NCBI GenBank assembly: GCA_036654455.1
Contig: JAVVRZ010000002.1
Span: 186,001-250,000 of the forward strand
Source of the DNA: Clostridia bacterium
Lineage (GTDB): Bacteria; Bacillota; Clostridia; Christensenellales; CAG-314
DNA: 64,000 bases
Reading direction: 5' to 3'
A program made the translations under genes and the position numbers. The notes beneath the pieces are model-generated. The model saw only the letters and a list, made by a program, of their open reading frames with translations, ran no database searches and was not told the origin of the DNA. This document shows positions 1,776 to 19,184 of this stretch, piece by piece (within the stretch, counting starts at the first letter, position 1; each line of letters begins with the position of its first letter).

Positions 1776-2903
1776 CTAGACTTGATAATGTTTTCCACAC
1801 GCAAAGACCGACACTATTTTGTCGCCCCTTACAAGAACTATGTCGGCGTCTGCGCCTACTTTTAAATTGCCCTTACTAGCTAGACTTAGTATGCGAGCAG
1901 GATTTGTCGTTGCCGGAAGCAGGGCTTGACTAAGGTCAATTCCTTGCGAAACTAGGGCAGAAATTGTCTCCCAAACGCTTGCTACCTTGCCTACGCCCGA
2001 ACCGATAATTCGCTTATCTATGTCATAAATTGGCATACTGCCTTGTCCGTCCGAGCTAAATGTAATGTTGCTTATATTTACGCCCGAAGCAAGCGAAGAA
2101 ATAAAACAATTATGCGCATTTAAAGGGTCGTTAATCGGCGTAATATTATCTCTACTTGTAGTAAAGTCTATTGTCGCATTAAATTTAATCGAATAAGCTA
2201 TGCCTTGACTAAAAATATCTTGGCTTCTATTAATATGTGTGGGTAGAATTTTTTGCGAAGGAATTTCCGTTTCGGTAAGTAAAGTTGTCAAAAGTTTAAG
2301 TCCGCTCTTGCCACTGCCTAAATGAACGTTACTTACGCCGGCTTTGCCAGAAAGCATACCGGCTACATAGGTGTCGGCTACTACGCTGTTGAAGTCTTGT
2401 TGGGTCGGTTGAGAAGAGCGATGGTCGTTAATTGCAAGTTCTCCGCTACCAATAATACAATCTACAAAAAGCATATCTTTAAAGATATCCCCCGTTGCCG
2501 TTAGCTGAGGTATGCGATAGTTGCCTGCCATACAGTATGCAGAAACACCTTGTTCCCTTAGCCCCCTAACCTTTGCGACTAAATTTGCCATTGTGCGAGA
2601 AACGCCGTCAGTACCAAGTACGCCTACTACGGTAGTTACGCCCGAGGCGATAAGTTCGCCTGCCTCAATGGGCGGAGTTTGAGACGCATACGACGCTTCG
2701 CCACCGCCTCCTAAAATATGAACGTGGTTGTCGATTAAACCGGGAATAGCCGTAAGCCCTTGACCATCGACTATTACGACGTTATCAAGCGTTAAAGAAA
2801 TGTTTTGAGAAATTTGTTCAATTCTATCATTTGCAATTAAAATATCGCAAATTCCCAAAGGCGAAGGCGAATAGACGGTAACATTTTTAATAAGAGTTAA
2901 CAT
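1776..2903 (-). CDS. iadA: isoaspartyl dipeptidase (beta-aspartyl-peptidase, M38 amidohydrolase)
   Basis: A 375-residue cytosolic zinc hydrolase that cleaves beta-aspartyl dipeptides. Metal-site residues of the amidohydrolase fold are visible: His60 and His62 (DNHVH), His194, His223 and Asp285. The family motif DHRSSQP is at about 160-166. The bridging carboxylated lysine of the E. coli enzyme aligns with Glu155 here, so metal bridging is by glutamate, a variant I believe occurs in other clostridial members. It is the last gene of the operon and overlaps the upstream cyanophycinase by 7 bp. With three cyanophycinase-family genes upstream, the likely substrate is beta-Asp-Arg, giving aspartate and arginine. 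Family assignment is firm; the substrate is inferred. Confidence 0.9.
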   Translation of the reverse strand: MLTLIKNVTVYSPSPLGICDILIANDRIEQISQNISLTLDNVVIVDGQGLTAIPGLIDNHVHILGGGGEASYASQTPPIEAGELIASGVTTVVGVLGTDGVSRTMANLVAKVRGLREQGVSAYCMAGNYRIPQLTATGDIFKDMLFVDCIIGSGELAINDHRSSQPTQQDFNSVVADTYVAGMLSGKAGVSNVHLGSGKSGLKLLTTLLTETEIPSQKILPTHINRSQDIFSQGIAYSIKFNATIDFTTSRDNITPINDPLNAHNCFISSLASGVNISNITFSSDGQGSMPIYDIDKRIIGSGVGKVASVWETISALVSQGIDLSQALLPATTNPARILSLASKGNLKVGADADIVLVRGDKIVSVFACGKHYQV

Positions 2904-3715
2904 TTTGCGTTCTCCGTAATGCGTTCTATTGTTGTTTCGTTGTCGGCTAAAACTATCTTGTATACGTATGCGCTACCTAATACCTCAATAGCGCCACTGG
3001 CTATATTGTAAATTAAGCCCGTATCTTCGCTTATGCCGTAGCCGTAGGGAGTGGAAGTATATTTCATTGTGGTAATTAATCTACGCTGACGAGCCCGAGT
3101 ATTAAAGTGTTGGTCGATAATACCGCCGTCAAAAAAACCTAAACCTTTGGTTATTAGCAGTTTTTCGTGTTCTTCGTTAGATTTGTCGCTAAAATATTCT
3201 TTTACACAAGTAATTGGAGGATAAGCAAGGCAACCCTCGTCTGTGCCGTTGCCTATCATAACCTTGCTCATAATTGCAGCGCCCGCCGAACTACCGCCGA
3301 TTACTCCGCCACGAACAAGAACTTGACGAATCGATTTAAGATAAATCGTATCGGTAAAGTCTTCGTTGAGGAAAAGCGCAGTTGTGCGTAGTTGACTGCC
3401 ACCGGTAAACCAAACGCCGGTAGCGTTGCTGAGAATATCTAAAAGTTCCTGATGTCTTGCGTTTGCTAGTCCTAACTGAGTAGCTACTTCTTTATCAAAT
3501 AATGGTAGCATAAATATATCTTCTTTTGGAACGCCTACGCTAATCAATTTATCTTTTGTTGCGTCAAAACTTTCTATTGGTTCGTCGCTTGCAGAAACAA
3601 CAACTACTATTTTTGTTCTATCAAGTGTCGCATACTGCGCAAATCTTGTAAAAATCTTTTTTGCCGACACCGATATATTACCGCCACAAATGACGAGTTT
3701 ACCCTTTTTTTCCAT
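2897..3715 (-). CDS. cphB: cytosolic cyanophycinase-family serine peptidase (S51)
   Basis: A 272-residue protein without a signal peptide. The nucleophile elbow GGSSAGA places the catalytic serine at 143. His203 in DQHFNTRARQRRL and Glu230 in GISEDTG complete the triad expected for cyanophycinase. Residues reported as substrate-contacting in Synechocystis CphB are also conserved: the Gln of FTGGSQ (108), Asp201, Gln202 and the spaced arginines 207, 209 and 212. Length fits the family (about 270). The arginine set argues against alpha-aspartyl dipeptidase PepE. It follows the secreted cyanophycinase by 25 bp and overlaps iadA, suggesting trimming of imported fragments before iadA acts. Confidence 0.85.
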   Translation of the reverse strand: MEKKGKLVICGGNISVSAKKIFTRFAQYATLDRTKIVVVVSASDEPIESFDATKDKLISVGVPKEDIFMLPLFDKEVATQLGLANARHQELLDILSNATGVWFTGGSQLRTTALFLNEDFTDTIYLKSIRQVLVRGGVIGGSSAGAAIMSKVMIGNGTDEGCLAYPPITCVKEYFSDKSNEEHEKLLITKGLGFFDGGIIDQHFNTRARQRRLITTMKYTSTPYGYGISEDTGLIYNIASGAIEVLGSAYVYKIVLADNETTIERITENAKC

Positions 3716-3740: not shown

Positions 3741-5918
3741 TTACTTCTTAATTGATAGTACTAGGTTTATTATAGTACACTTTTTGTAATCTTTCAACCC
3801 CGTAATTGTCATAGCTACGCTAGAAGAAGCATAAACTTGGGTCGATTCTACTCTGGTTAGTATAAGCTTAGTGGTTTGAGATGCAATTCCATAGCTTGAA
3901 GTTGCTAGTTGACTAAACGCAAACGTCACTAAGGCTTGGGTTGTTGAGTAGTTTGAACCAAAAATATCCTTAGTAGTATAAGTTGTGGTTATCGGCTCGG
4001 TTACAAGTGATTTTTGAAAAGGAATGACTGTCATTGTGTCAAATTTAATACTGTCGCCTGCTGTTAAATAATGTATTACTATATTATCGCAAGTAAAACT
4101 TGCGTCATTCTTACTGCCAAAAGTAGCCTTTCTTGCGTCTACAATAAATACGCCGTTAGGTCCGTATACAGTGCCTACGCCCCTACAAATACAAATGCCT
4201 GTGCCTTCGTCAAAGCCCATACCTAACTTAATGTTGTTGTCACGCATAGCTACTAACATTCTGCCTAAACGACTACGAGCGTCAAAGTGGCTGTCAAGTA
4301 GAGTAACATAACCTGTTAAGTCGCTAGACCAACTAAGTCCTTGCGTAGAAATAGCTACGTCCGTGTTGGGAGCTCCGCTGTCGCAATCGCCGATATTACA
4401 GTTTGTAGAAGAATTTGCATTGATTGTGCTAGTTGACGTGCCGTTTAAATAAGTAGGATTGCTCATAATGTTTGCGCCTGCGCTTGTGCCTGTTGCAAAA
4501 CCGCCCTTTCCTACAATGTCGTAGATAGCTTGTCCGCATTTATTTAAAGTATTGTCGTCGTTATAAATACATCTACTAATCTTTGATTGGTCTCCGCCGA
4601 TAAAGTGTACGCCGTGACAACTGCCTATTAAGGCTGAAAAATAGTCGTCGTTGCCGATTACTTTATAATTTTCGGGGTTAAGCGGAATATAAACAGCGTC
4701 CATACCAACTTGTTTGAAAAGTTGCTTCTGTACTCCAAATTCGGTAAAATTGTCAGCTTCGCTACCCGAAGCAGCGCCGATAATTGCTACACGTGGGCGT
4801 CCGCCGATTGCCGCTTTAAGTTTGGTTAATTCGCTCGAAGCAAGCACTGTTGTGGTGCAAGCTCCGCCGTTAGGGAATATCGTGCCGTTTCCAGCCCCAT
4901 AACCGATTGTAGCTAGTACGGTAGGTAAGGTCGTAGGCGTAAGTAATCTAAACGACTTGTAAATTCCCGTAACTCTACCTTCCTTGTTAAGGCTTGCGAC
5001 ATAGACATAATATATGTTCTCGGCATTGTACGCTTTGCCATAAATATCTTTTTGACTGTTTAAATCTATACTCGCAGTCGAGTCGACAGCGTTAGCAACT
5101 TCAACAACCTTCTTATCGCTGATTAATGTTTTAATTTCGTTTGCGCTAAGTAACTTAACACGCATTTCAACGTCGGCAATATTTGTCATACTGTAAAACA
5201 CTATATTGCTAACAATATCTTCAAAACTCCTAAACGTTAAGTTTAAACTGTTGCCATTTTTAGTAAAGTCTAGGTCGGTTGCATAAGCTTGCTTAATAAT
5301 TGTGCGGTCCGCAATAGATAGCGCAAGCATACCATCTTTACCCAAAGTAAAGCAGAAAAATCTATATTCGCCCGGGTCGGTCATTACTTTACCACTAATA
5401 ATATCCTTTTGATTAGTGTTATAGGTATTGCCAACACCGTCAGCATAAGACAAATCTGTCATAATATACACCGAATTATCGCCCTCTAAGGCAAGAATTT
5501 GTTCCTTATTAATTTTTGACAAATAATCTTTAACTTGTTTTGGGCTTGAAGTGGAGTAGCATATTCCGTACGCCTCTACGCCGGTCATATTCTGGCTCTT
5601 TGTAAAAGAAATCTTATATTTTTCAGGTGTAACGCCACCGTTGCCATATAATGTAACCTCTTGCAAAGAGAATTCAGTCTTAGCTAAATAATTCTCATCT
5701 TGATGTTGGCATATTACGCATACGCCGTTTTCATATTGATGCGCGCACTTTTTTCCGCAAATAGAGCATACGCTATCAACCCATTTATGTTCGCATTTTT
5801 CTCCGCAAATAGAGCATACGCCGTCAACCCATTTATGTTCGCAAGCGCAACCGGTTAATACAAACATTGGAATAACCAGCAGTAATACAAAGATAATAGC
5901 AAGGATACGCTTTTTCAT
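3741..5918 (-). CDS. secreted lipoprotein cyanophycinase with zinc-knuckle and repeat domains
   Basis: A 725-residue lipoprotein: signal peptide with lipobox LTGC (Cys24), then three tandem Cys/His knuckles (about 26-72, pattern C.HxWxxxVCSICGxKC). Two copies of a domain shared with the neighbouring repeat lipoprotein follow (about 85-210 and 215-328). A cyanophycinase domain occupies about 335-650. The nucleophile is Ser479 (GTSAGA), with His544, Glu571 (FDEGTG), the GGDQ glutamine, and arginines 548, 550 and 553 conserved. The residue before His544 is Ser where cytosolic homologues have Gln. A beta-rich tail ends the protein. It should sit on the outer membrane face and cut extracellular polymer. 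It is encoded between the repeat lipoprotein and the second cytosolic cyanophycinase. Confidence 0.85.
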   Translation of the reverse strand: MKKRILAIIFVLLLVIPMFVLTGCACEHKWVDGVCSICGEKCEHKWVDSVCSICGKKCAHQYENGVCVICQHQDENYLAKTEFSLQEVTLYGNGGVTPEKYKISFTKSQNMTGVEAYGICYSTSSPKQVKDYLSKINKEQILALEGDNSVYIMTDLSYADGVGNTYNTNQKDIISGKVMTDPGEYRFFCFTLGKDGMLALSIADRTIIKQAYATDLDFTKNGNSLNLTFRSFEDIVSNIVFYSMTNIADVEMRVKLLSANEIKTLISDKKVVEVANAVDSTASIDLNSQKDIYGKAYNAENIYYVYVASLNKEGRVTGIYKSFRLLTPTTLPTVLATIGYGAGNGTIFPNGGACTTTVLASSELTKLKAAIGGRPRVAIIGAASGSEADNFTEFGVQKQLFKQVGMDAVYIPLNPENYKVIGNDDYFSALIGSCHGVHFIGGDQSKISRCIYNDDNTLNKCGQAIYDIVGKGGFATGTSAGANIMSNPTYLNGTSTSTINANSSTNCNIGDCDSGAPNTDVAISTQGLSWSSDLTGYVTLLDSHFDARSRLGRMLVAMRDNNIKLGMGFDEGTGICICRGVGTVYGPNGVFIVDARKATFGSKNDASFTCDNIVIHYLTAGDSIKFDTMTVIPFQKSLVTEPITTTYTTKDIFGSNYSTTQALVTFAFSQLATSSYGIASQTTKLILTRVESTQVYASSSVAMTITGLKDYKKCTIINLVLSIKK

Positions 5919-6010
5919 ATTATTTATCTCCTAACATTTATTAGTATATTTATATATTCAAACACTTACATAGAGCGTTTGGTTATATTCAAATTTAAGT
6001 TTATTTGGTA

Positions 6011-6046
6011 TTTTCCCACAAACGCAATAAAGCATTTGTGGGAAAA
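6011..6046 (-). other. intergenic stem-loop between two lipoprotein genes
   Basis: The 224-bp gap 5919-6142 holds no gene. It contains a perfect 12-bp inverted repeat TTTTCCCACAAA/TTTGTGGGAAAA and, upstream in transcription direction, two GCTAGC copies that can pair (6070-6110). The stem lacks a following T run on the minus strand, so it looks more like an mRNA processing or stability element than a terminator. It may set the ratio of repeat lipoprotein to secreted cyanophycinase. Confidence 0.45.
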
Positions 6047-6142
6047 AACCGACTGATTGTAAGATACGCTAGCAAGTGTAAGACAGAGTGTGTAAAACTA
6101 TCGCTAGCAAACTATAACGCTGTTAAATGCGCTATTGTTTAA

Positions 6143-8227
6143 TTATGAACGAACGATAGCTTGTTCGAGTCTACCAACCCAAAGCAAACCATTGTCGCCA
6201 ACTACTATTACATAGATGTAATAAGTGCCGGGAGTAGCCATCATATCTACGGTCTTGTTGATAAAGTCGAACGAACCCTTAGATAGAGCCATTGTCTTGC
6301 CATCGGTAACATAAGAAAGTTTTCTTTCTCTTAGATAAATTGCGCCTTCAACAGGATACATTGCGTCAAAGTCGGCTCTTGTTAAGCCTGCTAGGGCAGC
6401 TTTAACAGTTGCAAGGTCAGCTGAGGAATAACCGATAAATATGCTCTTAGCAAGAGTAGCGTCAAATGCAGGACCAGCGACTATCTTAACGCCTAGGTCA
6501 TTTACGCTTGTAAGAGGGTCTAAGTGGTCGGCTGTGATATTTGCAAGCCAAGCCGTTGGGTCAACTCTTACGATTGCTTGTTCAAGTCTACCAACCCAAA
6601 GCATACCGTCGTCGCCAACAACTACTACATAGAGGTAATAAGTGCCGGGAGTAACCATCATATCAACGTCTTTGTTAATAAAGTCAAACGAACCTTCCGA
6701 AGGAGCCATTGTGCCACCATCATCAACATAAGAAAGGCCTCTTTGTCTCATATAGATTTTGCCTTCGACAGGATACATTGCGTCAAAGTCAGCTCTTGTT
6801 AAACCTGCTAAGGCAGCTTTAACAGTTGCAAGGTCGGCTGAGGAATAACCGATAAATAGGCTCTTAGCTAAGGTTTTGTCAAAAGCAAAGCCTTTCTTAA
6901 CCTTAATGCCAAAGTCATTTACAGTCTTAATTTCGGGTAAGTGGTCTGCTGTAATTTCTGTTAGCCAAGCAGTTGGGTCGGCTGGCGGTCCAAAGATAAC
7001 GTCAATTTCTCTTGAAGCGCTAACAGCGCCCTTAGAAATTGTTACTGTAAAGATATTGCCTGATTTGAAAGTAGGCGTTACGGTCAAACCCGTAATGTTT
7101 GTTCCAATTTCAGCTACAATGCTCTTTTTAATAGCTTCGGCCTTAACTTCGGGAGCCCAGTTAGCCGCATCTTTGTTATCGCTTTCGAGAACGGTTGAAT
7201 ATACAAAGTCTATTAAAGCATTTCTTACGTCGATAGTATCGGGCGTAATTTCAACTGTCTTTTGAGCTTCGCCTACCCACTTAATTTGTCCGTTTGCAAC
7301 AGACGCCATATAGAAGTGGTAAACGCCGGGTGTTTGCTCGATAGAATTAAGAGTAACAAAGTCTACCGCTACGCCATAAAAACCTGTGCTAGCAGGATTG
7401 TCGGTAGCTAAATATTCTAGTCTTTTGCCTTTATTGAGTAATCTAACACGGTTAGCCGTATCAAGAGCTTCAATGTCAACGCCGGTCTTAATATTCTCTT
7501 TAATATAAGCTTGTATTTCTGCAAGAGTCTTAACCGAATATAACATTAAAACTGAGTCTAGTTTGTTGTAAAGTTCGCTTTGTGTTTGTCCTTCGGCAAG
7601 TTTTTCTAAGTAAACGTCAGCGTGCATTCTAAATTGTTTTGCGCCTGTTAGGCTAAAATCAAAGGGGTCGCACTCTACTAACTTAATGTTAGGAATTGCA
7701 AAAGTTTCGTCCCAATTTTGGTCTCCGGTAGAAGCGTCTGTTCTTACTATTGCTTCTTCGAGTCTACCAACCCAAAGCAAACCATTGTCGCCAACTACTA
7801 TTACATAGATGTAATAAGTGCCGGGAGTAGCCATCATATCTACGGTCTTGTTGATAAAGTCGAACGAACCCTTAGATAGCGCCATTGATTCGCCTCCAAC
7901 ATAGGAAAGTTCTCTTTCTCTTAGATAAATCGTACCCGTAGTAGGATACATTGCGTCAAAGTCAGCTTTCTTCAAGCCTTCTAAGGCTGTCTTTACGGTT
8001 GCAAGGTCAGCTGAGGAATAACCGATAAATAGGCTCTTTGCTTGCTTATCATCAAAGTCAGCGCCTTTCTTTACCTTTACGCCATAATCATTAGCGCTTG
8101 CTATTGTTGCTAGGTGATCGGCTGTAATTTCAGTAAGCCAAGTTTCCTTATCGCCCTTACAAGCAGATAACGAAAACAAGCAAGAAACAGCTAGTAACAC
8201 AGCTAGAAATAGTGATAATTTTTTCAT
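6143..8227 (-). CDS. repeat lipoprotein, candidate surface polymer-binding protein
   Basis: A 694-residue lipoprotein (lipobox LSAC, Cys23) of no family I recognise. It carries three close copies of a ~130-residue domain (about 30-162, 421-551, 560-694), each starting WLxxITADHL and containing FIGYSSADLATVK, FDAMYP, PGTYY and VGRLE. A fourth divergent copy lies at about 230-330 and a separate beta-rich segment at about 337-420. The same domain pattern (an I-x-Y-S strand, PGxY, a terminal V-x-x-G-x-G-x-L hairpin) occurs twice in the secreted cyanophycinase encoded next. No catalytic motif is visible. The start has AAGGAG eight bases upstream. I infer a surface protein that holds substrate for the peptidase and the ABC importer; this is not shown. 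Confidence 0.75.
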   Translation of the reverse strand: MKKLSLFLAVLLAVSCLFSLSACKGDKETWLTEITADHLATIASANDYGVKVKKGADFDDKQAKSLFIGYSSADLATVKTALEGLKKADFDAMYPTTGTIYLRERELSYVGGESMALSKGSFDFINKTVDMMATPGTYYIYVIVVGDNGLLWVGRLEEAIVRTDASTGDQNWDETFAIPNIKLVECDPFDFSLTGAKQFRMHADVYLEKLAEGQTQSELYNKLDSVLMLYSVKTLAEIQAYIKENIKTGVDIEALDTANRVRLLNKGKRLEYLATDNPASTGFYGVAVDFVTLNSIEQTPGVYHFYMASVANGQIKWVGEAQKTVEITPDTIDVRNALIDFVYSTVLESDNKDAANWAPEVKAEAIKKSIVAEIGTNITGLTVTPTFKSGNIFTVTISKGAVSASREIDVIFGPPADPTAWLTEITADHLPEIKTVNDFGIKVKKGFAFDKTLAKSLFIGYSSADLATVKAALAGLTRADFDAMYPVEGKIYMRQRGLSYVDDGGTMAPSEGSFDFINKDVDMMVTPGTYYLYVVVVGDDGMLWVGRLEQAIVRVDPTAWLANITADHLDPLTSVNDLGVKIVAGPAFDATLAKSIFIGYSSADLATVKAALAGLTRADFDAMYPVEGAIYLRERKLSYVTDGKTMALSKGSFDFINKTVDMMATPGTYYIYVIVVGDNGLLWVGRLEQAIVRS
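6164..6286. repeat. 123-bp perfect repeat in the repeat lipoprotein gene, copy A
   Basis: Identical to 7757-7879 (offset 1593 bp). It encodes the C-terminal third of domain copy three. DNA identity with no silent differences points to recent duplication or gene conversion inside the gene. Confidence 0.9.
7757..7879. repeat. 123-bp perfect repeat in the repeat lipoprotein gene, copy B
   Basis: Partner of 6164-6286; encodes the C-terminal third of the first domain copy. The second domain copy is similar but diverged at the DNA level. Confidence 0.9.
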
Positions 8228-8290
8228 TGTTTCTTCTCCTTTAATACTTTATTTAAACCCCTCTAATTAATTGTATCGGGCTATAAATTT

Positions 8291-10570
8291 TTAAACAGTT
8301 TTTTTAGACTTCTTTGGAGCTGTCTTTTTTGCGGTTTTGACTACCTTGGGAACGTCGGGTTGCAAATTTTTAATATAAATTTCCATCTCTTTATCGTTAG
8401 CTAATATGAAATGCCCCTCTTTAAGTTTCTGCCAACTTGGCTGTTGAACAGAGTAATCGTGAGAAACTTTTGGGTCATAATTAGTTACAATCTTGTTCCT
8501 TTCGTATTCGGGGTCGGGCATGGGTATTGCCGAAAGCAACGCCTTAGTGTAAGGGTGCATAGGGTTGAGAAATAGTTCTTCCGCCTCGGCAAGTTCGACA
8601 ATTTTGCCCTTATGAATTACGGCTATTCGGTCGCTTATAAATCTAACAACGGATAAGTCGTGAGCGATAAATAGATAGGTCAAATCACGAGCTTTTTTCA
8701 AATAGTTAAGTAGGTTAATGATTTGAGCCCGTATAGAGACGTCTAGCGCCGAGATAGGTTCGTCTGCTATAATTAGTTGGGGTTGCATAATAAGCGCCCT
8801 TGCAATGCCCAAACGCTGTCTTTGACCGCCTGAAAACTCGTGCGGAAAGCGACTTGCAAACTCCGGCGATAGTCCTACGTCAATCATTGCCTTAGCTACT
8901 TTTTCCTTTCGCTCCTCTTCGTTTTTAAATAATTTGAAGTTGTAAAGACCTTCGCTTATGATATAGTCTACCTTAGCTCTTTCGTTTAAAGATGCCATTG
9001 GGTCTTGGAAAATCATTTGCACGCTTTGACGAAATTGCTTCATTTGTTCGTAGTTTAATTTCTCGTCTATGCGTTCGCCGTTGAAAACTATTTGTCCGCT
9101 ACTGTTAGGAGTTATCTTCATAATCGAACGACCTATGGTAGTTTTTCCGCTCCCGCTCTCGCCGACTAAGGCAAATGTTTCGCCTTTATGAATTTGAAAA
9201 CTTGCGTTATCTACTGCACGGAATTTCTTTTTGCCTGCGCCGAAATCTACGCAAAGATTTTCCACCGACAGTATAACTTCCTTTTTATTAAGTTCGTCAA
9301 GTTTGTTTCTATCTACTACTGCTTTGGCAAAGTGCGACCGAGCAGACGACGCCGAACCAATATAATTTTTTGGGTCGCCGTATTTGTCAATAGCGTATTT
9401 GTGTAGCGTCCAAGTCTTAGCTTTATGCGTTGGAGATACCTCAAAAAACGGCGGTTCTTGCTCGAAGTCAATCTTTAAAGCGTCGGGGTTACGATAAGCG
9501 AATGCGTCGCCCTTAATCTCTTTATATAGGTTTGGGGGCGTACCCTTAATTGCGTATAAGTCTTCGCCTTTAACCCCTAGCTGAGGTAACGATTTCATAA
9601 GCGCCCTTGTATAAGGGTGAACCGGCAGCGAGAATAGTTCGTCGCTTGACCCAATCTCGACTATTTCGCCTGCGTACATTACTGCGACTCGGTCGGCAAC
9701 GTTAGCTACTACGCCTAAGTCGTGAGTAATAAAGACTACGGTTAAGTCGAGTTCGGCTTGAATATCTTTTAATAATTTTAATATTTGAGTTTGTAAAGTT
9801 ACGTCTAGCGCAGTTGTTGGTTCGTCGCAAATAAGAATGTCGGGGTGGCAAGCAATAGCCGTAGCTATTACTATACGTTGACGCATACCACCGCTAAATT
9901 CGTGCGGATATTGATAATATCTTGTGGCAACGTCGGGGATACCGACTTTTTCCATAAGCGACATCGCCTCTTTCTTCGCATCTTCTTTATTTAATTTACT
10001 GTGAAGCACCAAAACTTCTTTGATTTGTTCGCCAATGCGTTTAAGAGGATTAAGAGCAGTCATAGGGTCTTGAAAAACCATAGCTATGCGTTTGCCTCTA
10101 ATCTTCAACCAATTCTTTTTATTGATTCGGCGTTGATTGTAGTCAGGTCGCCTTGTTGACCACTCGGCTAAGTCTTGTCCGTCAAAAAGAATGTTACCGC
10201 TCTCGACCCAGCCATTTTTATCGGTCATACCAACAAAAGTCTTAGTTAGCACAGATTTACCGCTACCGCTTTCGCCAACTATGGCTAAGGTTTCGCTACG
10301 ATATAATTTTAAGCTTGAACCTCTTACTGCGGTAAGCGTCCTGCCTCTTAGATTAAATTGAACTACCAAGTCTTTAATTTCCAAAATGACGTCTTTGTCG
10401 CAGGAATCTTGTTCTATTTCGATTTGTTCTTCGTCTTGACTTTGCTCTGTTTCGGTTTGTTGTTCGCCTTGACTTTGCTCTATTTCGATTTGTTCTTCGT
10501 CTTGATTTTGCTCTGTTTTGGCTTTAACTTCGTCTTGATTTTGTTTTGTTTGTTGTTCTTCTATGTTCAT
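8291..10570 (-). CDS. fused OppD-OppF type double ABC ATPase
   Basis: A 759-residue cytosolic protein joining both ATPases of an oligopeptide importer. First half: Walker A GESGSGKS, signature FSGGMRQR, Walker [11 protein letters not shown], then the Opp/Dpp-specific C-terminal segment. Second half: [25 protein letters not shown]. The first ~55 residues are an acidic Gln/Glu-rich repeat ([15 protein letters not shown]-like), and the tail is Lys/Ala-rich. I prefer the ATG at 10570 over an upstream in-frame GTG at 10579, because the latter lies inside the GAGGTG ribosome site. It follows oppC closely and powers import of the peptides handled by the rest of the operon. Confidence 0.9.
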
Positions 10571-10582
10571 AATATTCACCTC

Positions 10583-11524
10583 TTACACGTGATTTTTGGG
10601 GTCGGACGCATCTGCGAAACGATTGCCCAAAACATAGAATGAAATTGTTATAATCGACAAAATCAAAGTGGGAAACCATAATTGATAGGAGTGGAAACGG
10701 AATACCGCTCTACCCGTGCTTATTAAGTCGCCTAGCGACACTACCGAAGTACCCGGTAAACCTAAACCGATATAACCTAAGAAAACTTCCGAACCAATGG
10801 TCATAGGTATAGTTAACGCAGTTTGCATAATAATCAAGCTAACTAGATTAGGAAGAATATTCTTAGATAAAATGCGTCCTAGCGGAGTGCCTAAACAACG
10901 ACTTGCGATGTTATACTCGCTTCGCCTTATAGCAACGACCTTGTTGCGAATAAACATTGCAACCGACAGCCAACCCGTCACGCACATAGCTAGAACTATC
11001 GTCCAAAAACCCGGAGTAAATATATAGGTAAATAAAACTAGATATATTGTCTGTGGTATATTGACTAAAACGTTGTAAATTTCGGTCATTATTCTATCCA
11101 TTTTTTCAACGTATCCCCAAAGAGCGCCCATAATTACGCCGATGGTGATGTCAAAAAACGCTACTACAAAACCTAGCAAAAGCGAAGTTCTTGTGCCGTA
11201 CCAAGTACGTGTCCACATATCTCGCCCTAAGTTGTCAGTTCCAAAGATATGTTCTGCGCTAGGCGCGTTGTTAGCTAGCTCGGGATTATTAATGATTGTA
11301 GGCGCTATGGGGTCTACCGAAGTAAACATCGGGTAAAAGAACGCCATAAGCACAAACAATCCGGCTAAAATTACTAATGTTTTAGAAATAGGGCTTTTAA
11401 AGAACGTTCTTATTGTAGACCGCCAGTAAGAATAATTGGAATAGCCTATATTGTCAGCTTCTTTTTCGTTAAACCCGGCTTTTTCAAACATAGATTCGGT
11501 TAACTTAACTTGGAGATTCATCAT
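10583..11524 (-). CDS. oppC: oligopeptide/dipeptide ABC permease, OppC type
   Basis: A 313-residue integral membrane protein of the DppC/OppC family. An N-terminal cytosolic stretch of about 35 residues precedes the first helix, followed by a periplasmic-type loop with IFGTDNLGRDMWTR, a hallmark of this family. Five further helices follow, with the EAA-type loop around RNKVVAIRRSEYNIASRCLG. Start and stop overlap oppB (ATGATGA), with AAGGAGG ten bases upstream, so translation is coupled. It forms the import channel together with OppB. Confidence 0.92.
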   Translation of the reverse strand: MMNLQVKLTESMFEKAGFNEKEADNIGYSNYSYWRSTIRTFFKSPISKTLVILAGLFVLMAFFYPMFTSVDPIAPTIINNPELANNAPSAEHIFGTDNLGRDMWTRTWYGTRTSLLLGFVVAFFDITIGVIMGALWGYVEKMDRIMTEIYNVLVNIPQTIYLVLFTYIFTPGFWTIVLAMCVTGWLSVAMFIRNKVVAIRRSEYNIASRCLGTPLGRILSKNILPNLVSLIIMQTALTIPMTIGSEVFLGYIGLGLPGTSVVSLGDLISTGRAVFRFHSYQLWFPTLILSIITISFYVLGNRFADASDPKNHV

Positions 11525-12495
11525 AACGCTTTAACCTCCTTTTTTGCCTTTCTTTTACTGCTTGAAGTAAGCTGTATGCGAGGGTCAATTATGGCCATAG
11601 CTATATCGCCCAAAAATACGCCGACAATGCCTAGTATTGAGAATAGTAGAACTAATATTTGTACTACGTTGTTATCCATTTCTTGTATAGCCTTGACTAA
11701 TAGTCCGCCCATGCCGGGTATGCTATACAAACTCTCGATTACAAGAGAGCCTGATATAGTTAGTAGTAGTTGAGTTGGAAAATACTGTACTAGCGGAACA
11801 AGGGCGTTACGCAAAATGTGGCTGTTCATAATTTTTCGTTCGCTCAACCCTTTTGCCCTAGCAAATTTAACGTAATCTCTATTTTCCTCGTCTACCATAA
11901 ATCGCCTTAGCCATACCGCATACCAAGCTATGCTAGACAGCGATAACGATATAACAGGCAGTACCCAAGTCGCAGGGTTGCTATCGCTAAATGTCATAGG
12001 TATTCCAAACCATCTAGTGAAATATACTTGAATAAAGAATAGATAAATCAAACTAGGTATTGCTCTTACCGCTACTACATAACCCGTACCAAGTAAGTCT
12101 GGCAGTTTGTCTTTATTTTTTGCCATAGATATGCCCATAAAGAAGCCCAGCGCCATAGAAATAACCATACTTACTCCGCCGAAAGCTAAGGAATATGGCA
12201 CTCTTTCGGCGAGTAAATCGACAATAGGCTTGTGAATTTTGTCAACACGCAATACTTCGCCTAAGTCGCCTTGAAATAAATTGACAAAGAATTTGCCAAA
12301 GAGAACAAAGGGATTGCCTTTTACGCCTATATCTATTAAATATTGTTCTCTCTCAAACTCGGTCATATTAAACAAGTCGTCCCTTGTAAAGTAACCGTCG
12401 GTTGGCATCAATCTAAGTAGCATAAATACTACAAAAATTATTATTATGATTGATATTAAAGACTGTAACAGCCTTTTTATTGTGTATTTAAACAT
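11521..12495 (-). CDS. oppB: oligopeptide/dipeptide ABC permease, OppB type
   Basis: A 324-residue membrane protein. The first helix (about 9-30) is followed by the large outer loop and five more helices. The family loop motif around FVKFARAKGLSERKIMNSHILRN is split here as RAKGLSERKI followed by HILRNAL. The C-terminal ESLYSIPGMGGL segment is typical of OppB/DppB. It lies 12 bp after the binding-protein gene and overlaps oppC by 4 bp. The substrate cannot be read from the permease; context suggests beta-linked Asp dipeptides. Confidence 0.92.
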   Translation of the reverse strand: MFKYTIKRLLQSLISIIIIIFVVFMLLRLMPTDGYFTRDDLFNMTEFEREQYLIDIGVKGNPFVLFGKFFVNLFQGDLGEVLRVDKIHKPIVDLLAERVPYSLAFGGVSMVISMALGFFMGISMAKNKDKLPDLLGTGYVVAVRAIPSLIYLFFIQVYFTRWFGIPMTFSDSNPATWVLPVISLSLSSIAWYAVWLRRFMVDEENRDYVKFARAKGLSERKIMNSHILRNALVPLVQYFPTQLLLTISGSLVIESLYSIPGMGGLLVKAIQEMDNNVVQILVLLFSILGIVGVFLGDIAMAIIDPRIQLTSSSKRKAKKEVKAL

Positions 12496-12507: not shown

Positions 12508-14457
12508 TTAATTAGCGCCGTTTAACGCAGCGAGCGCATCGTTAAATTCTTTTTCATATTTTTTGTATTCTTCGGTAGTTAAAGGTTCTTCTTGCGTATC
12601 CATCCATCTATAAGAGAAACGACTTAAACCAAAACCTCCACGTGGAGCAAGGAAAGGAATAGCACGAGTCATTTCAAATACGCCTCCGCCGTTCTCCCAA
12701 GGAATGAGGTAACCGCCGTTAATTAACATAGCTTCTAGTTCGCTAAATATCTTATATCTTTGCGATAATACCGTGCAAGCCGCAGCTTGTTTGACTAATT
12801 CGTCGTAACCTTCTATTACAAATTTACCGTCGTTAACTTCGCCTTGCGAGGTTAATCTTCCTAATTGAGCTAATGGGTCGCCATACTTAAAGCTGTAACT
12901 GTCGCAACTTATGTCAAAGCCCATATATTGATTGCAAGAAACATATTTGTCGTCGCCAGTTTGGAACATTCTTACGTTGATTAATTTATTACCATCTTTA
13001 TCCGCAAACAAGCCTTCGATAGCCGCTTTAAATACTTGGGCAACTTGAATATCGTTAGAGTCTGGTCCGTGTGTAAATACTAAGTCAATAGGAAGTTTAC
13101 CGTCCATCTCAAAAGTAATCGAGTTACGCATACTTACCGTGCCGGGCGTTACGCCTTTAATTGTCTTTCCGTCAGCTTCGACAAGTTCGGCAAGAGCAAG
13201 AGCGAAATATCTCTTAGCTTCCTCTTCATTATAGATGGTGTCTTTAAGGTCTTTAATAGCCTTTAATTCGGGGTAATCGGTGTAATCAACGCCATTTTCG
13301 TCAAAGCATACTCCTTCGGGAATTATTGTGTTAGTGAGCATTGCTTCGGGGTTGATGTTGTTGTAAATACGAGCCATTGCAGTACGGTTCACGCCGTGAC
13401 GAAGAGCTTTTCTAAAATTATCGTTGTGGATAAAAGTGTCAAACTCTTTGTTAAGCGATTGGAAGTTTTGATAAAACCAGAATGTTACAGTTGATTTATC
13501 TTTGAAATTTACATAATCCTTGTATTTAGCGTTGCCTAGATAATTTGCAACTTCGTCGCCCGGAATGTTTGCGCTAGTAAGTTCGCCACGCAAAAACATC
13601 TCGATTGTTGTATTTGTGTTAGAAACTTTTTGAAGTTTTATTGTGTCAACCTTCATATTTACAGCGTCATAGTGAGCGGGGTTTTTACTTAGAACAAATT
13701 CTACGCCAGTACGCCAGGTCTTTAAGAAGTAAGGTCCGTTGTATAGTAATTTGTCGCAATCTGCGCCAAACATCTCTTTGCAATTTAGCGCAAATTCGAT
13801 ATTAAGGGGCAAAAACAATTCGGTTACTAAGAATGACTCAAAATAAGGAATAGATTGGGTGAGCGTATAGGTAACAGTCTTAGTAGCGTTGTCAGCTTTT
13901 ACGCCTACAATGGTGTCAAATTGGTCGACAAGTTCCTGACGAGTCGAATTCTTAATGTTAGCAGGTTTCTTATAATCAGGGATAGAAGTGTCGTCCTTAA
14001 TACGAATATTCTCATAATAAGTTTCAAGTCCGGAAATAACGGTCTTGATCATACTTATGTCCGCCTTAGTATTCTTGTGGTCGGAGTAATATTTCATAGC
14101 GTCTGCCCAGTCGGTTGCAAGAACTTCTCTAACTTTCTCGCCCTTACAGTCAAACCAGAAAATGTTATCTCTTAGGTGGAATGTCCACACAGACTTGTCA
14201 GCGTTGCTTTCCCAAGTTTCTGCGCTTGCGCCAACATATCTGCCAAAGCGGTCGTTAATAATCAATCCTTCCATAGTGTTAGCGATTATCTTCTTACCCG
14301 TTGTATCGGGAAGGTTAAAAGGAGAGATTAAGTTTAGGTCGATAGCGTAACTAGCGTAGTAAGTCTTGCCTTTATTTTCTTCTCCGCAGGCAGACAAAGC
14401 GAACACGCAAGTTATAGTCATCAATATTGCAAGTGTTAAAGAAACTATTTTTTTCAT
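12508..14457 (-). CDS. oppA: oligopeptide-binding lipoprotein (SBP family 5)
   Basis: A 649-residue extracellular binding lipoprotein: signal peptide with lipobox LSAC (Cys24) and a family-5 solute-binding fold. Visible family features are the early GLIINDRFGRYVG segment, WTFHLRDNIFW, and the NDNFRKALRHGVNR segment near the middle. It is longer than typical OppA (about 540), with extra acidic insertions. GGAGG lies six bases before the start. A 149-bp gap separates it from the upstream cyanophycinase gene and holds an inverted repeat at 14566. It should deliver peptides released at the surface to OppBC. Confidence 0.92.
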   Translation of the reverse strand: MKKIVSLTLAILMTITCVFALSACGEENKGKTYYASYAIDLNLISPFNLPDTTGKKIIANTMEGLIINDRFGRYVGASAETWESNADKSVWTFHLRDNIFWFDCKGEKVREVLATDWADAMKYYSDHKNTKADISMIKTVISGLETYYENIRIKDDTSIPDYKKPANIKNSTRQELVDQFDTIVGVKADNATKTVTYTLTQSIPYFESFLVTELFLPLNIEFALNCKEMFGADCDKLLYNGPYFLKTWRTGVEFVLSKNPAHYDAVNMKVDTIKLQKVSNTNTTIEMFLRGELTSANIPGDEVANYLGNAKYKDYVNFKDKSTVTFWFYQNFQSLNKEFDTFIHNDNFRKALRHGVNRTAMARIYNNINPEAMLTNTIIPEGVCFDENGVDYTDYPELKAIKDLKDTIYNEEEAKRYFALALAELVEADGKTIKGVTPGTVSMRNSITFEMDGKLPIDLVFTHGPDSNDIQVAQVFKAAIEGLFADKDGNKLINVRMFQTGDDKYVSCNQYMGFDISCDSYSFKYGDPLAQLGRLTSQGEVNDGKFVIEGYDELVKQAAACTVLSQRYKIFSELEAMLINGGYLIPWENGGGVFEMTRAIPFLAPRGGFGLSRFSYRWMDTQEEPLTTEEYKKYEKEFNDALAALNGAN

Positions 14458-14606: not shown

Positions 14607-15431
14607 TTAAAGTTTTATAATTTCATTTTTATAATGTTTGGTTATTCGTTTGTAACGAGGGTTACCTTTAATGAAACAAACATAGGCGCTACCTAGCACT
14701 TCAATTTGGTTTTGCTCTCGGTCATAGACAAAAGCGGTGTCTTCGCATATCCCAAAAGATTTACTTATATTAAATAGGTCCATTGAAGCTATTAATCGAG
14801 TTAGGCGGGGGCGAGTGTTAAAGTGTTGGTCAATCAAACCGCTACTAAATAAATTAAACCCTCTTGTCAAAAGAACTTGTCCGTCTGTTTCGTTTACGCT
14901 ACCTTCATATTTAGCGGCGTCGGTTTCTATTGGTAAGGTTAAAGATGCTAGGTCGCTACCTGCGCCAATCATAAACTTGCCCATAATCGACGCTCCTGCC
15001 GAAGTTCCGCCGACTACTCCGCCGTTTTCATATACTTCTCTTATTAATTTGAGGGAAGCGGTGTCTTTTTCGTAATTACGCAGTAACGCCTTTACAGTTT
15101 TCATTTGATCTCCACCAACAAACCACACGCCTGTCAAATCTTTGAGGTAAGGTAGTAACGCAGGGTCGTCGCCATCGCTTGACCAGCCCTGAGATATTAA
15201 ATTAGGTATTAGGGAAAGAGGTAGACAATTAATATTTGATGGTTTTGCTCCCAATTTAACTAAGGTAGTTTGAGTACAGCTAAACGATTCTAGCGGAATT
15301 GCCGAAGAAACAACAACTACGCATATTTTTGCATTCTCTCCGCCGGCAAGTCTAAGAAATTCTCCGTAAATCTCCTCTTTACTCCTGCCTACGTTACCGC
15401 CAGCTACGACTAAATAACCCTCTTTATTCAT
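14607..15431 (-). CDS. cphB: cytosolic cyanophycinase-family serine peptidase, second paralogue
   Basis: A 274-residue S51 peptidase, first gene of the operon. The start is set at the ATG at 15431, seven bases after AGGAG; an upstream in-frame ATG (15464) has no ribosome site. Catalytic residues match cyanophycinase: Ser144 in GGTSAGA, His203 in DQHFNTRPRLTRL and Glu230 in GICEDTA. The GGDQ glutamine (109) and arginines 207, 209 and 212 are also present. It resembles the 2897-3715 product throughout, including a shared IEVLGSAYV near the end, but they are clearly diverged paralogues. The cell thus appears to keep two internal forms that may differ in chain-length or side-chain preference. Confidence 0.85.
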   Translation of the reverse strand: MNKEGYLVVAGGNVGRSKEEIYGEFLRLAGGENAKICVVVVSSAIPLESFSCTQTTLVKLGAKPSNINCLPLSLIPNLISQGWSSDGDDPALLPYLKDLTGVWFVGGDQMKTVKALLRNYEKDTASLKLIREVYENGGVVGGTSAGASIMGKFMIGAGSDLASLTLPIETDAAKYEGSVNETDGQVLLTRGFNLFSSGLIDQHFNTRPRLTRLIASMDLFNISKSFGICEDTAFVYDREQNQIEVLGSAYVCFIKGNPRYKRITKHYKNEIIKL

Positions 15432-15487
15432 AACATAACTCCTAGTTTGATGTATTATTTGCACTAAATGATATCACTATGGTTGAC

Positions 15488-15678: not shown

Positions 15679-16476
15679 ATGGCATTTATAGAGATCGACA
15701 AATTTGACCGTTTTGCAAATTATGACGGAAACAACACTTTTACAAACACTTTTTACCAAATAGTTTATATAGGTAATGGCGAAAAGGAATACACGATTGA
15801 AAACAAGCTATGTTTAGCTAAGGCAAATTCCTTTGTTCTTATACCGCCTAGCACGAAATACAGCTACAAAAACTTCTCGGGGGCGCAACTGCATATTTCT
15901 TTTGACGTATTCTACCTAGATATAATTGACGAAGTAATACTGCACCATTGTTTTAACAACAGAATTATACATTTAGATATGGCTCAACAATGCGGTATTA
16001 ATCTTGTAAATATGGTAAAAGAGATTGAAAAAGAATACAATATGAACATTAAGCAAGACAATTTACTGCTTAAACTGCTTGTTAGCGAACTAGTGTTACG
16101 CATCAATAGATACGCCCTTGAAAACGATAGTTTGACGCTACAACTCAGCAACTCTACTTGTTTGATGGAAGATATTAGAAATTATATTAATAACAATTTT
16201 GCCTCTTGCACGCTTGCAAGTTTGAGCAAAACTTTCTATGTGTCCACTTCTCACCTTAGTCGAGAATTTAAAAAAATGTTTGAAATAAATATTTCTGACT
16301 TTATCATTAGCAAAAAAATTGCCCTAGCTATCAATCTACTGCGAAATACTAAACAAAGTATGGAACAAATTGCAACCGAATGCGGTTTTTCTTCGGCAAA
16401 CTACTTCGGTCTACGTTTCAAGCAAGAAATGGGTATGTCGCCAATGGCTTACCAAAAGTCGGTTAGGTTTACCTAG
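15679..16476 (+). CDS. AraC-family transcription regulator
   Basis: A 265-residue regulator. The N-terminal ~150 residues look like a cupin-type effector-binding domain (beta-rich, with LIPPSTKYSYKN). Residues about 168-264 form the double helix-turn-helix, with LASLSKTFYVSTSHLSREFK and MEQIATECGFSSANYFGLRF as recognition regions. The start has GGAGG at 15667-15671. It is divergent from the nine-gene minus-strand operon and separated from it by about 250 bp, making it the obvious candidate activator. The effector is unknown; beta-Asp-Arg, arginine or aspartate are reasonable guesses from context. Confidence 0.88.
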   Translation: MAFIEIDKFDRFANYDGNNTFTNTFYQIVYIGNGEKEYTIENKLCLAKANSFVLIPPSTKYSYKNFSGAQLHISFDVFYLDIIDEVILHHCFNNRIIHLDMAQQCGINLVNMVKEIEKEYNMNIKQDNLLLKLLVSELVLRINRYALENDSLTLQLSNSTCLMEDIRNYINNNFASCTLASLSKTFYVSTSHLSREFKKMFEINISDFIISKKIALAINLLRNTKQSMEQIATECGFSSANYFGLRFKQEMGMSPMAYQKSVRFT

Positions 16477-16722: not shown

Positions 16723-17691
16723 TTACCTTAACGCTTTGTCGTAAGGTATGCCTTCGGCTTTTGGCGCGCGAGATTTTTTAGATGTAAAGGCAAGCACGAC
16801 TAGGGTTGCAAAATAAGGCACCATATCGTAAATTGCGCTAGGAATACCTAAATTATCTAGGAAAGGTATCTTGCCGTGTAAAGAAGATAACGACATCATA
16901 AAGGCGAAGAATAGAGCGCCTAAGAATATCTTTGAAGGTTTCCACTGACCAAAGATTAAAACCGCTAAGGCTAAAAAGCCGTAACCAAAAACTGTACCGC
17001 TAAATTCGCTTATTAGTGGCACCATAAATAACATACCGCCGATACCGCCAAGTAGACCGCTTATTGCAACGCCCCAATAACGCATTCTAGGCACGTTGAT
17101 GCCTACGGAGTCGGCTGCCTGCGGGTGTTCGCCACAAGAACGCAATCTAAGCCCAAAGCGTGTTTTGTTGAGCAAAAAGGTAGACACTAAAAGAATAAGT
17201 AAGCCTATAAAAGTGGTAATATAGGTGTCTTTAAAGAACATATCGCCTATTACTGGGATACTGCCTAAAAAACCGCCATCTTTAATATAGAATAACCCGA
17301 CGGTATCAATTTGAATATTTTGCGTTCCTATTGTCATACGAGCAAGGAAAACAACAAGCGCAACAGAAATAATGTTAAGCGCCGTACCGCCTATGGTTTG
17401 GTCTGCCTTAAAATTGATTGCCGACACGCCTAGCAAGAGCGAATAAATTGTGCCTGCTATGCCTGCAATTAAAATGGCAAAAATCAGTAGTAATTGAGGG
17501 TTCATTACGACCCCTGCCTTTTGCATTAAATAGATAAACATATATCCGCAAAATGTGCCTATAATCATAATACCGTCAAGGGCGATGTTGATAGTTCCGC
17601 TTCGTTCGCTAAACATACCGCCTAACGCAACTACCATAAGTGGCATTGCTATTAAAAAAGCATATCTAAATACTTCGTAAAAAATTTCCAT
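16723..17691 (-). CDS. nupQ: nucleoside ABC importer permease, NupQ type
   Basis: A 322-residue permease of the BMP/nucleoside-import branch. The opening segment carries GGMFSERSGTINIALDG, a signature of YufQ/NupQ-like permeases. About eight hydrophobic helices and the LRSCGEHPQAADSVGIN loop that contacts the ATPase are visible. It is the last gene of a four-gene operon and begins 2 bp after nupP ends. It forms the membrane channel together with NupP for nucleosides delivered by the BMP lipoprotein. A purine nucleoside phosphorylase gene is at 58.5 kb. Confidence 0.88.
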   Translation of the reverse strand: MEIFYEVFRYAFLIAMPLMVVALGGMFSERSGTINIALDGIMIIGTFCGYMFIYLMQKAGVVMNPQLLLIFAILIAGIAGTIYSLLLGVSAINFKADQTIGGTALNIISVALVVFLARMTIGTQNIQIDTVGLFYIKDGGFLGSIPVIGDMFFKDTYITTFIGLLILLVSTFLLNKTRFGLRLRSCGEHPQAADSVGINVPRMRYWGVAISGLLGGIGGMLFMVPLISEFSGTVFGYGFLALAVLIFGQWKPSKIFLGALFFAFMMSLSSLHGKIPFLDNLGIPSAIYDMVPYFATLVVLAFTSKKSRAPKAEGIPYDKALR

Positions 17692-17693
17692 AT

Positions 17694-19184
17694 TTATTTC
17701 TCCTCGTCAGTATTTGACTCATTTTGACTTGCCGAATTTTTGGCAACTTGACTAGCCGAGTCAACGACTTCTTGACTAGCCGTATCGATTATTTCTTGGC
17801 TAGCCGGGTCAACGACCTCTTGACTTATATCTACATTATTATCTTGCTCATTCTCAACGGCAGGTTCTGTCACTTTTTTCTTTCTAAACTTAGCTATTAA
17901 TTTAGGCAAATACGACTTGATAATTAGAGCGGCGGCGCTGAAATAAATAATTATACCTACGATAATGTCTATAATCTCGGGCTTAAAGTCAAGCAGTTGC
18001 AAGAAGAAACCGCCTCGCTGTAAGTGCGCAATAAATAACGCCGAGAAAATTATGCCTATTGGGTGACTTACGCCGAGCAAAGCTACGGGTATGCCGTTAA
18101 AGCCCATAGGGGCGATTACGTTTTTGGGAGAATATGGATTTCCGCCGGTTTGTATATTGATTGCGCCTGCAAGCCCTGCAAGAGCGCCGGCTATTACCAT
18201 TGATAGAATAATACTGCGTTTCTCGTTTACGCCGGCATATCTTGCGGCATTCTTGTTAAGTCCGCACGCCCTTAGCTCAAACCCAAACTTAGTCTTGTTA
18301 AGCACGTAATAAAGAATAATCGCAGTTGATATAGCAAGTATAAGTCCCAAAGCTACACGTGAACCATTAAATAATTTGTCTAGCCCAAAAGTCGGCATAG
18401 CCGCATTAAGGGGAACAGGGTAAGTGCGTTGTTCGATAGACATAAACATCGTTGTATCATTCTTAATCATCATATCCACAAAATATACGCCGATGTAGTT
18501 GGTCATAATTGAGGTGATAACTTCGTTGACATTAAATACCGCTTTAAATAATCCCGGAATAAAGCCCCAAAGCGCTCCGCCAATAATGCCGGCAAGCAAA
18601 CAAACCACCCAATTACCTTCAAGGGTAAATGCAGCGACAAGGGCAAAATACATACCCATAGTATATTGTCCGCTTGCGCCTATATTAAATAGTCCTGTCT
18701 TAAAGGCAAAACCTACCGAAAGACCGGTTAAAAGCAAAGGAGTTGCGACATAGAGCATATCGCCTATGCCTCTCATAATGTCAGGATTATTAAATCCTCC
18801 AAGTAATATTCGCCAAAAACCCTCAAAAGCGTCTTGTGGCTTAGTTACAAGCATAAGAATTAGACCAAATAACAAGCCTATTACTACGGCTATTGCAGAA
18901 GAAGAAAAACTACTAAACGTCGAACTATTAAGTAAGCGTTTAAACATTGGCTTAGGGTGAGTGAAAAGTTGAACAAAAAAGTTAGCGATAGAAAGGGCGG
19001 TTTTTTTAAACCATCTACCAATAGCAAATGTTGCTTTCTTAATCCATCTACCAATAGCAAATGTTGCTTTCTTAATCCATCTACCAGTTGCGAATGTTGA
19101 CTTTTTAATCCATCTACCGGTTGCAAACGTAGCCTTCTTAATCCATCTGCCAACGGAAACAAAAAATTGTTTAAATTTATTCAT
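17694..19184 (-). CDS. nupP: nucleoside ABC importer permease, NupP type, with repeat extensions
   Basis: A 496-residue permease. The core (about 85-430) matches YufP/NupP-like proteins, with GLSVGFAFKTGLFNIGASGQ and a cytosolic LRACGLNKNAARYAGVN coupling loop. Both ends are unusual. Residues 12-61 contain five copies of an 11-residue basic amphipathic unit GRWIKKATFAT, and the C-terminal ~45 residues repeat SQEVVDPASQ-like acidic units. Neither end is expected in the family. The start codon overlaps the nupO stop by one base (TAATG), so translation is coupled. Confidence 0.87.
   Translation of the reverse strand: MNKFKQFFVSVGRWIKKATFATGRWIKKSTFATGRWIKKATFAIGRWIKKATFAIGRWFKKTALSIANFFVQLFTHPKPMFKRLLNSSTFSSFSSSAIAVVIGLLFGLILMLVTKPQDAFEGFWRILLGGFNNPDIMRGIGDMLYVATPLLLTGLSVGFAFKTGLFNIGASGQYTMGMYFALVAAFTLEGNWVVCLLAGIIGGALWGFIPGLFKAVFNVNEVITSIMTNYIGVYFVDMMIKNDTTMFMSIEQRTYPVPLNAAMPTFGLDKLFNGSRVALGLILAISTAIILYYVLNKTKFGFELRACGLNKNAARYAGVNEKRSIILSMVIAGALAGLAGAINIQTGGNPYSPKNVIAPMGFNGIPVALLGVSHPIGIIFSALFIAHLQRGGFFLQLLDFKPEIIDIIVGIIIYFSAAALIIKSYLPKLIAKFRKKKVTEPAVENEQDNNVDISQEVVDPASQEIIDTASQEVVDSASQVAKNSASQNESNTDEEK
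19011..19148. repeat. 33-bp tandem repeats in the 5' end of nupP
   Basis: Units begin at 19011, 19044, 19077, 19110 and 19143 (period 33 bp). Neighbouring units are nearly identical in DNA, so copy number could change by slippage without breaking the frame. Confidence 0.9.

Follow-up and report, generated by a model that had tools for sequence, protein, structure and literature searches.

Cyanophycin is a nitrogen-storage polymer of cyanobacteria. In polysaccharide utilization loci, the genes of surface glycan-binding lipoproteins with several modules adjoin those of a surface depolymerase and an importer. Extracellular PHB depolymerases carry a linker, which is fibronectin-III-like in some of them, and a substrate-binding domain. 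More generally, fibronectin-III-like domains are often mere spacers. For cyanophycin, the concept of a cyanophycin-utilization locus exists (Ben Hania et al., cited in PMC10206079); as far as PMC10206079 relates it, the cyanophycinase, isoaspartyl dipeptidase and transporter genes are clustered there and cphA1 is absent.

The locus described here lies in a 64,000-nucleotide stretch of a Clostridia bacterium contig, referred to as the window. Its minus-strand block contains, in order, CphB type 2, OppA, OppB, OppC, OppDF, a repeat lipoprotein, a secreted cyanophycinase, CphB type 1 and IadA (Table 1). The gene order suggests that the block is transcribed as one unit; a promoter and terminator search of the block gave no call above chance. 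The inverted repeat in the gap that separates the repeat lipoprotein gene from the cyanophycinase gene could lead to different amounts of the two proteins. The source genome, which is small and 95% complete, contains no full CphA1, the best match reaching 114 bits against a cut-off of 850 and covering the ligase part only. Together with the clustered cyanophycinases, isoaspartyl dipeptidase and transporter, this fits a scavenging cyanophycin-utilization locus, to the extent that the concept is laid out in PMC10206079. What sets the window apart from the locus as related there is an enzyme that is itself a modular lipoprotein, along with a repeat lipoprotein built from the same module. The OppD–OppF fusion is 762 residues long, with an acidic, Gln/Glu-rich, repetitive N-terminus. 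Adjoining the locus at 16723–20722 are two permeases and an ATPase of a sugar/nucleoside-type ABC importer, whose closest models are those of a putative B6 transporter, below cut-off.

Table 1. Features of the cyanophycinase locus and of the two module-bearing lipoproteins, in window coordinates.
Feature	Position	Strand	Basis or remark
Isoaspartyl dipeptidase IadA	1776..2903	-	TIGR01975, 403 bits, over cut-off
Cytoplasmic cyanophycinase, CphB type, copy 1	2897..3715	-	TIGR02069, 140 bits, over cut-off
Secreted cyanophycinase lipoprotein P0002, 725 aa	3741..5918	-	Signal peptide with lipobox LTGC
C-terminal domain (YLTAGDS..)	3744..4118	-	Common to G931 and Romboutsia
Peptidase S51 (cyanophycinase) catalytic domain	4119..4916	-	
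Module copy C2, residues 210–328	4935..5291	-	Held-out profile E 7e-7
Module copy C1, residues 77–209	5292..5690	-	Held-out profile E 5e-14
Three Cys/His zinc-knuckle-like repeats, residues 25–72	5703..5846	-	Sequence
Inverted repeat, 19-nt arms, 89% complementary	6007..6050		Inside the 224-base gap separating the two lipoprotein genes
Repeat lipoprotein P0001, 694 aa	6143..8227	-	ORF; four modules and no catalytic domain, with a signal peptide and lipobox LSAC
Module copy R4, residues 560–694	6146..6550	-	
Module copy R3, residues 421–555	6563..6967	-	
R2–R3 intervening segment, ~86 residues (331–416)	6980..7237	-	Unrelated to module
Module copy R2 (divergent), residues 176–330	7238..7702	-	Held-out profile E 2e-10
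Module copy R1, residues 30–163	7739..8140	-	
Fused OppD–OppF ATPase	8291..10579	-	
OppC and OppB permeases	10583..12495	-	ORFs, position and sequence
OppA-type substrate-binding lipoprotein	12508..14457	-	SBP_bac_5, E 2.5e-31
Cytoplasmic cyanophycinase, CphB type, copy 2	14607..15464	-	TIGR02069, 128 bits, over cut-off
Divergent AraC-family regulator	15679..16476	+	

The two surface lipoproteins share a module of about 120–155 residues, present six times in the window: four copies in the repeat lipoprotein (R1–R4) and two in tandem in the cyanophycinase (C1, C2). A preliminary description of this DNA had reported three close copies and one divergent copy in the lipoprotein, and the same module twice between the zinc knuckles and the peptidase domain of the cyanophycinase. 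Both observations hold. Identity to R1 is 74% for R3 and 78% for R4, and R2, C1 and C2 are each recovered by profiles from which they were held out (Table 1). The dN/dS ratios among R1, R3 and R4, about 0.19–0.34, indicate purifying selection. At the DNA level, R1 and R4 agree in every base of about 30 codons close to their 3′ ends, whereas an early stretch is only 57% identical, and this suggests gene conversion between the copies. The segment between R2 and R3 shows no similarity to any module copy, nor to any family.

Identity to R1 falls to about 25% for R2 and C1, whose local scores against R1, R3 and R4 stand at z 5.7–9.5 over shuffles. Pairwise, C2 is not significant against R1, R3 and R4 (z 0.4–0.8); against the Romboutsia and G931 copies described below, it reaches z 6–10. 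The pairwise test led us to expect that C2 was a non-homologue, and the profile test overturned this. In the profile test, each copy was scored by a profile built without it, and for the lipoprotein, the cyanophycinase, and the Romboutsia and G931 proteins the whole protein was dropped. All six window copies are recovered at E 5e-14 to 3e-6, and the four lipoprotein copies score E 6e-9 to 3e-6 with a profile built without any of them; the best of 3,000 shuffles gives E 0.017 to 0.4. These held-out scores establish the six copies as one family, and R1–R4, C1, C2 and the Romboutsia and G931 copies are all one homologous module family. The best-conserved position is the Asp of (Q)-x-D-[IFV], which is present in all copies and had been omitted from the motifs listed in the preliminary description. 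Next in conservation is the Tyr-Ser pair, which that list did contain, and the Y-x-x-Y strand preceding the last hairpin is also among the best-conserved features. Two of the listed motifs need amendment: the hairpin is nearer to G-x-x-G-x-L (GDNGLL, GKDGML) than to G-x-G-x-L, and PGxYY does not occur in C2, which has AENIYY in its place, or in Romboutsia.

Searches of Pfam, NCBIfam and PDB sequences with the module gave chance-level or single-member matches, none holding over several copies. The Pfam fibronectin type III model and the Pfam carbohydrate- or wall-binding models show no match to it, and the repeat lipoprotein has zero Pfam or NCBIfam matches above cut-off. The earlier view of one non-catalytic module common to both surface proteins is borne out, with no known sequence family matched. 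A literature search found no paper with the phrase “cyanophycin-binding” and no account of the way in which anaerobes hold and digest insoluble cyanophycin extracellularly.

The AlphaFold2 model of C1, made from an alignment with five relatives, has a mean pLDDT of 75 and a pTM of 0.73, and it runs strand-strand-strand-helix-helix-strand-strand-strand. The R1 model is of low confidence (pLDDT 58.6, pTM 0.64), so its fold matches are no evidence by themselves; its confident part has the element order of C1. The predicted structures, one copy per protein, agree in this order, and the refuting outcome named in the preliminary description, different folds in the two proteins, did not arise. Fold searches with both models return mostly fibronectin-III chains, all of them weak (Foldseek E 0.26 and above), the best being Z 4.7 over 79 residues at an rmsd of 3.5. 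In strand order as predicted, and in the majority of its best weak matches, the module is like fibronectin type III; the lack of a Pfam match, the two-helix insertion after the Tyr-Ser strand and a Z of at most 4.7 are unlike it. The likely fold predicted from these models is a fibronectin-III-like beta-sandwich with a helix-pair insertion. The fold gives no information on the ligand. Beyond this weak likeness, the module matches no family of unrelated function.

No relative was found in 41 genomes of the same family, searched with the lipoprotein as the query, and 396 genomes of the order yielded no accepted relative; a weak match in one of the latter (G114) proved on reading to be an unrelated short lipoprotein. 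Scanning 391 genomes of the class with a profile of the window copies gave one clear foreign relative, a 1091-residue surface protein of Romboutsia maritimum, and four further matches at E 0.002–0.007 that are partial modules and near chance. In a phylum sample of 398 genomes, a nine-copy profile located the module in the window genome and in genome G931 only. G931 was first reached through its S51 domain, and the window-copy profile recovers it too; with the profile of the six window copies, the two foreign proteins come up at 1e-9 and 3e-16. Beyond the six window copies, the nine-copy profile gives no match in the source genome, and the G931 and Romboutsia genomes contain no second module-bearing protein. 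A search of genome contigs with the full cyanophycinase gave no match, and one with the S51 alignment gave a match in R. maritimum only. Plasmid cyanophycinases align with the G931 protein only from its residue 303 onward, after the modules. For a scan of viruses, the module profile yields no sufficiently conserved pattern. In the scanned genomes, the module is restricted to cyanophycinase-type proteins and their operon; the samples overlap and cover a small part of the Bacillota phylum, so this rarity is valid for the genomes scanned. The profile search suggested in the preliminary description thus returned no Pfam family, and foreign carriers only where there is a secreted cyanophycinase-type domain.

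The window enzyme is arranged as lipobox, zinc knuckles, C1, C2, S51 domain and C-terminal domain. Its S51 domain is like that of CphB/CphE (TIGR02069; PDB 7UQV, 3EN0), which has the motifs GTSAG, HFxxR and DE(D/G)T; the catalytic Ser, His and Glu motifs of the window enzyme are intact as GTSAG, DSHFDARSRLGR and DEGT. Unlike CphB/CphE, the window enzyme and the G931 protein each have a pair of modules at the N-terminal side and an added C-terminal domain; both fall below the TIGR02069 equivalog cut-off (for the window enzyme, E 1.4e-25 and 90.2 bits against 126.6). The G931 protein consists of a signal peptide, two tandem modules and an S51 domain in the C1-C2-S51 order of the window, with the same C-terminal domain, an LPXTG-type anchor and intact motifs (GTSAG, HFDARGR, DEGT). 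The zinc-knuckle repeats of the window cyanophycinase also occur in other large ORFs of the same bacterial family (E down to 2e-10) and, recurring in this way, look like a general surface-protein element rather than a cyanophycin feature.

The Romboutsia carrier, a large surface protein encoded at 7036–10311 of locus L047, has one module, a helical stretch, Ig-like domains and an S51-like domain, together with the C-terminal domain of the window enzyme, a surface Ig-like domain and a transmembrane end. Its S51 domain matches cyanophycinase at 4.7e-22 and has lost two catalytic residues: Gly replaces the Ser (GTSAG to GVGLG), and Asp replaces the His (HFD to DFD). From its sequence, it is an apparent pseudo-enzyme. 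The Ser of GTSAG is taken to be the nucleophile, as in S51 peptidases in general. It is Ser in 3EN0 and Ala in the 7UQW chain, a change that supports the same assignment. The three carriers of S51 type group in a single clade, supported at 100/100, in which Romboutsia is a long branch. Their link between module and cyanophycinase may therefore go back to one architecture passed on by descent and not to recruitment on several occasions. The repeat lipoprotein is a second, separate carrier of the module. No module was found in the cytoplasmic CphBs, nor in the secreted cyanophycinases of genomes G1099 and G915, and it is absent from the two loci that encode the latter (L081, L082). The G1099 enzyme has a doubled S51 domain. 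Read from sequence, both loci contain an IadA-like gene and a YfcC-like transporter.

The preliminary description took the module for a binder of cyanophycin or a similar polymer, a reading that the analysis supports in part. We consider there to be an even chance that the module is a non-catalytic polymer-capture domain for cyanophycin, acting in secreted degradation. In the arrangement that we infer, the four lipoprotein copies would form a surface string holding cyanophycin granules or chains through weak multivalent contacts, and the tandem C1-C2 would keep the S51 exopeptidase of the lipoprotein enzyme on the same insoluble polymer. OppABCDF would then import the released beta-Asp-Arg dipeptides or short pieces, and the two CphB-type enzymes and IadA would finish these inside the cell. 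Several observations argue for capture. A four-module lipoprotein with no catalytic cargo sits within a dedicated cyanophycin locus, and in the genomes scanned the module occurs only in cyanophycinase-type proteins and in this locus. The dead Romboutsia cyanophycinase retains the module, as a binding protein would. In addition, the four carriers have separate anchors (two lipoboxes, an LPXTG motif and a C-terminal transmembrane segment), and anchoring therefore does not depend on the module. Against capture, the G1099 and G915 enzymes lack the module, which attack on the polymer therefore does not require, and fibronectin-III-like beads are commonly spacers.

That last point leads to the reading of the module as a structural spacer, in which fibronectin-III-like beads with no ligand of their own lift the catalytic domain off the membrane. 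The likeness to fibronectin-III domains is weak but consistent, the tandem copies do sit between anchor and catalytic domain, and the zinc knuckles of the same protein likewise look like a general element. Since the four-module lipoprotein has nothing to space, and spacers recur in many surface proteins while this module, in the genomes scanned, keeps to cyanophycinase-type proteins and their operon, we regard a spacer as unlikely, if still a serious contender. The presence of one module in two adjacent surface proteins, with conserved hydrophobic and Tyr positions, could instead reflect protein docking, where the lipoprotein and cyanophycinase copies pair with each other, or with OppA, as a surface degradation complex. 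This is improbable, because G931 and Romboutsia each have one module protein and no module-bearing partner in the genome. Surface location and non-catalytic repeats would also suit a classical wall- or carbohydrate-binding module directed at the cell wall or another polymer, such as polysaccharide or peptidoglycan. All four carriers already possess another anchor, no Pfam wall- or carbohydrate-binding model matches, and every carrier is linked to cyanophycinase-type proteins, which leaves this reading very improbable.

Under the capture reading, the locus resembles those of the glycan-binding proteins and carbohydrate-binding modules (CBMs), with a multi-module non-catalytic surface lipoprotein beside a depolymerase and an importer, and the module also fused to the enzyme. 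It differs in that the proposed polymer is a poly-amino acid, and the module has no sequence similarity to Pfam models. Like PHB depolymerases, it has non-catalytic accessory domains on a depolymerase of an insoluble bacterial storage polymer; the catalytic domain and substrate are unrelated, and here the accessory module also forms a separate multi-copy lipoprotein. We propose tentatively, with somewhat more doubt than belief, that this may be a founding cyanophycin-binding module, which evolved with secreted cyanophycinases, was multiplied into the lipoprotein and persists on a dead Romboutsia enzyme that only binds. If it is polymer-binding, the module would be to a poly-amino acid what carbohydrate-binding modules are to polysaccharides. 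It would then also mark cyanophycin scavengers in metagenomes and offer a ready-made tag for the labelling or purification of cyanophycin.
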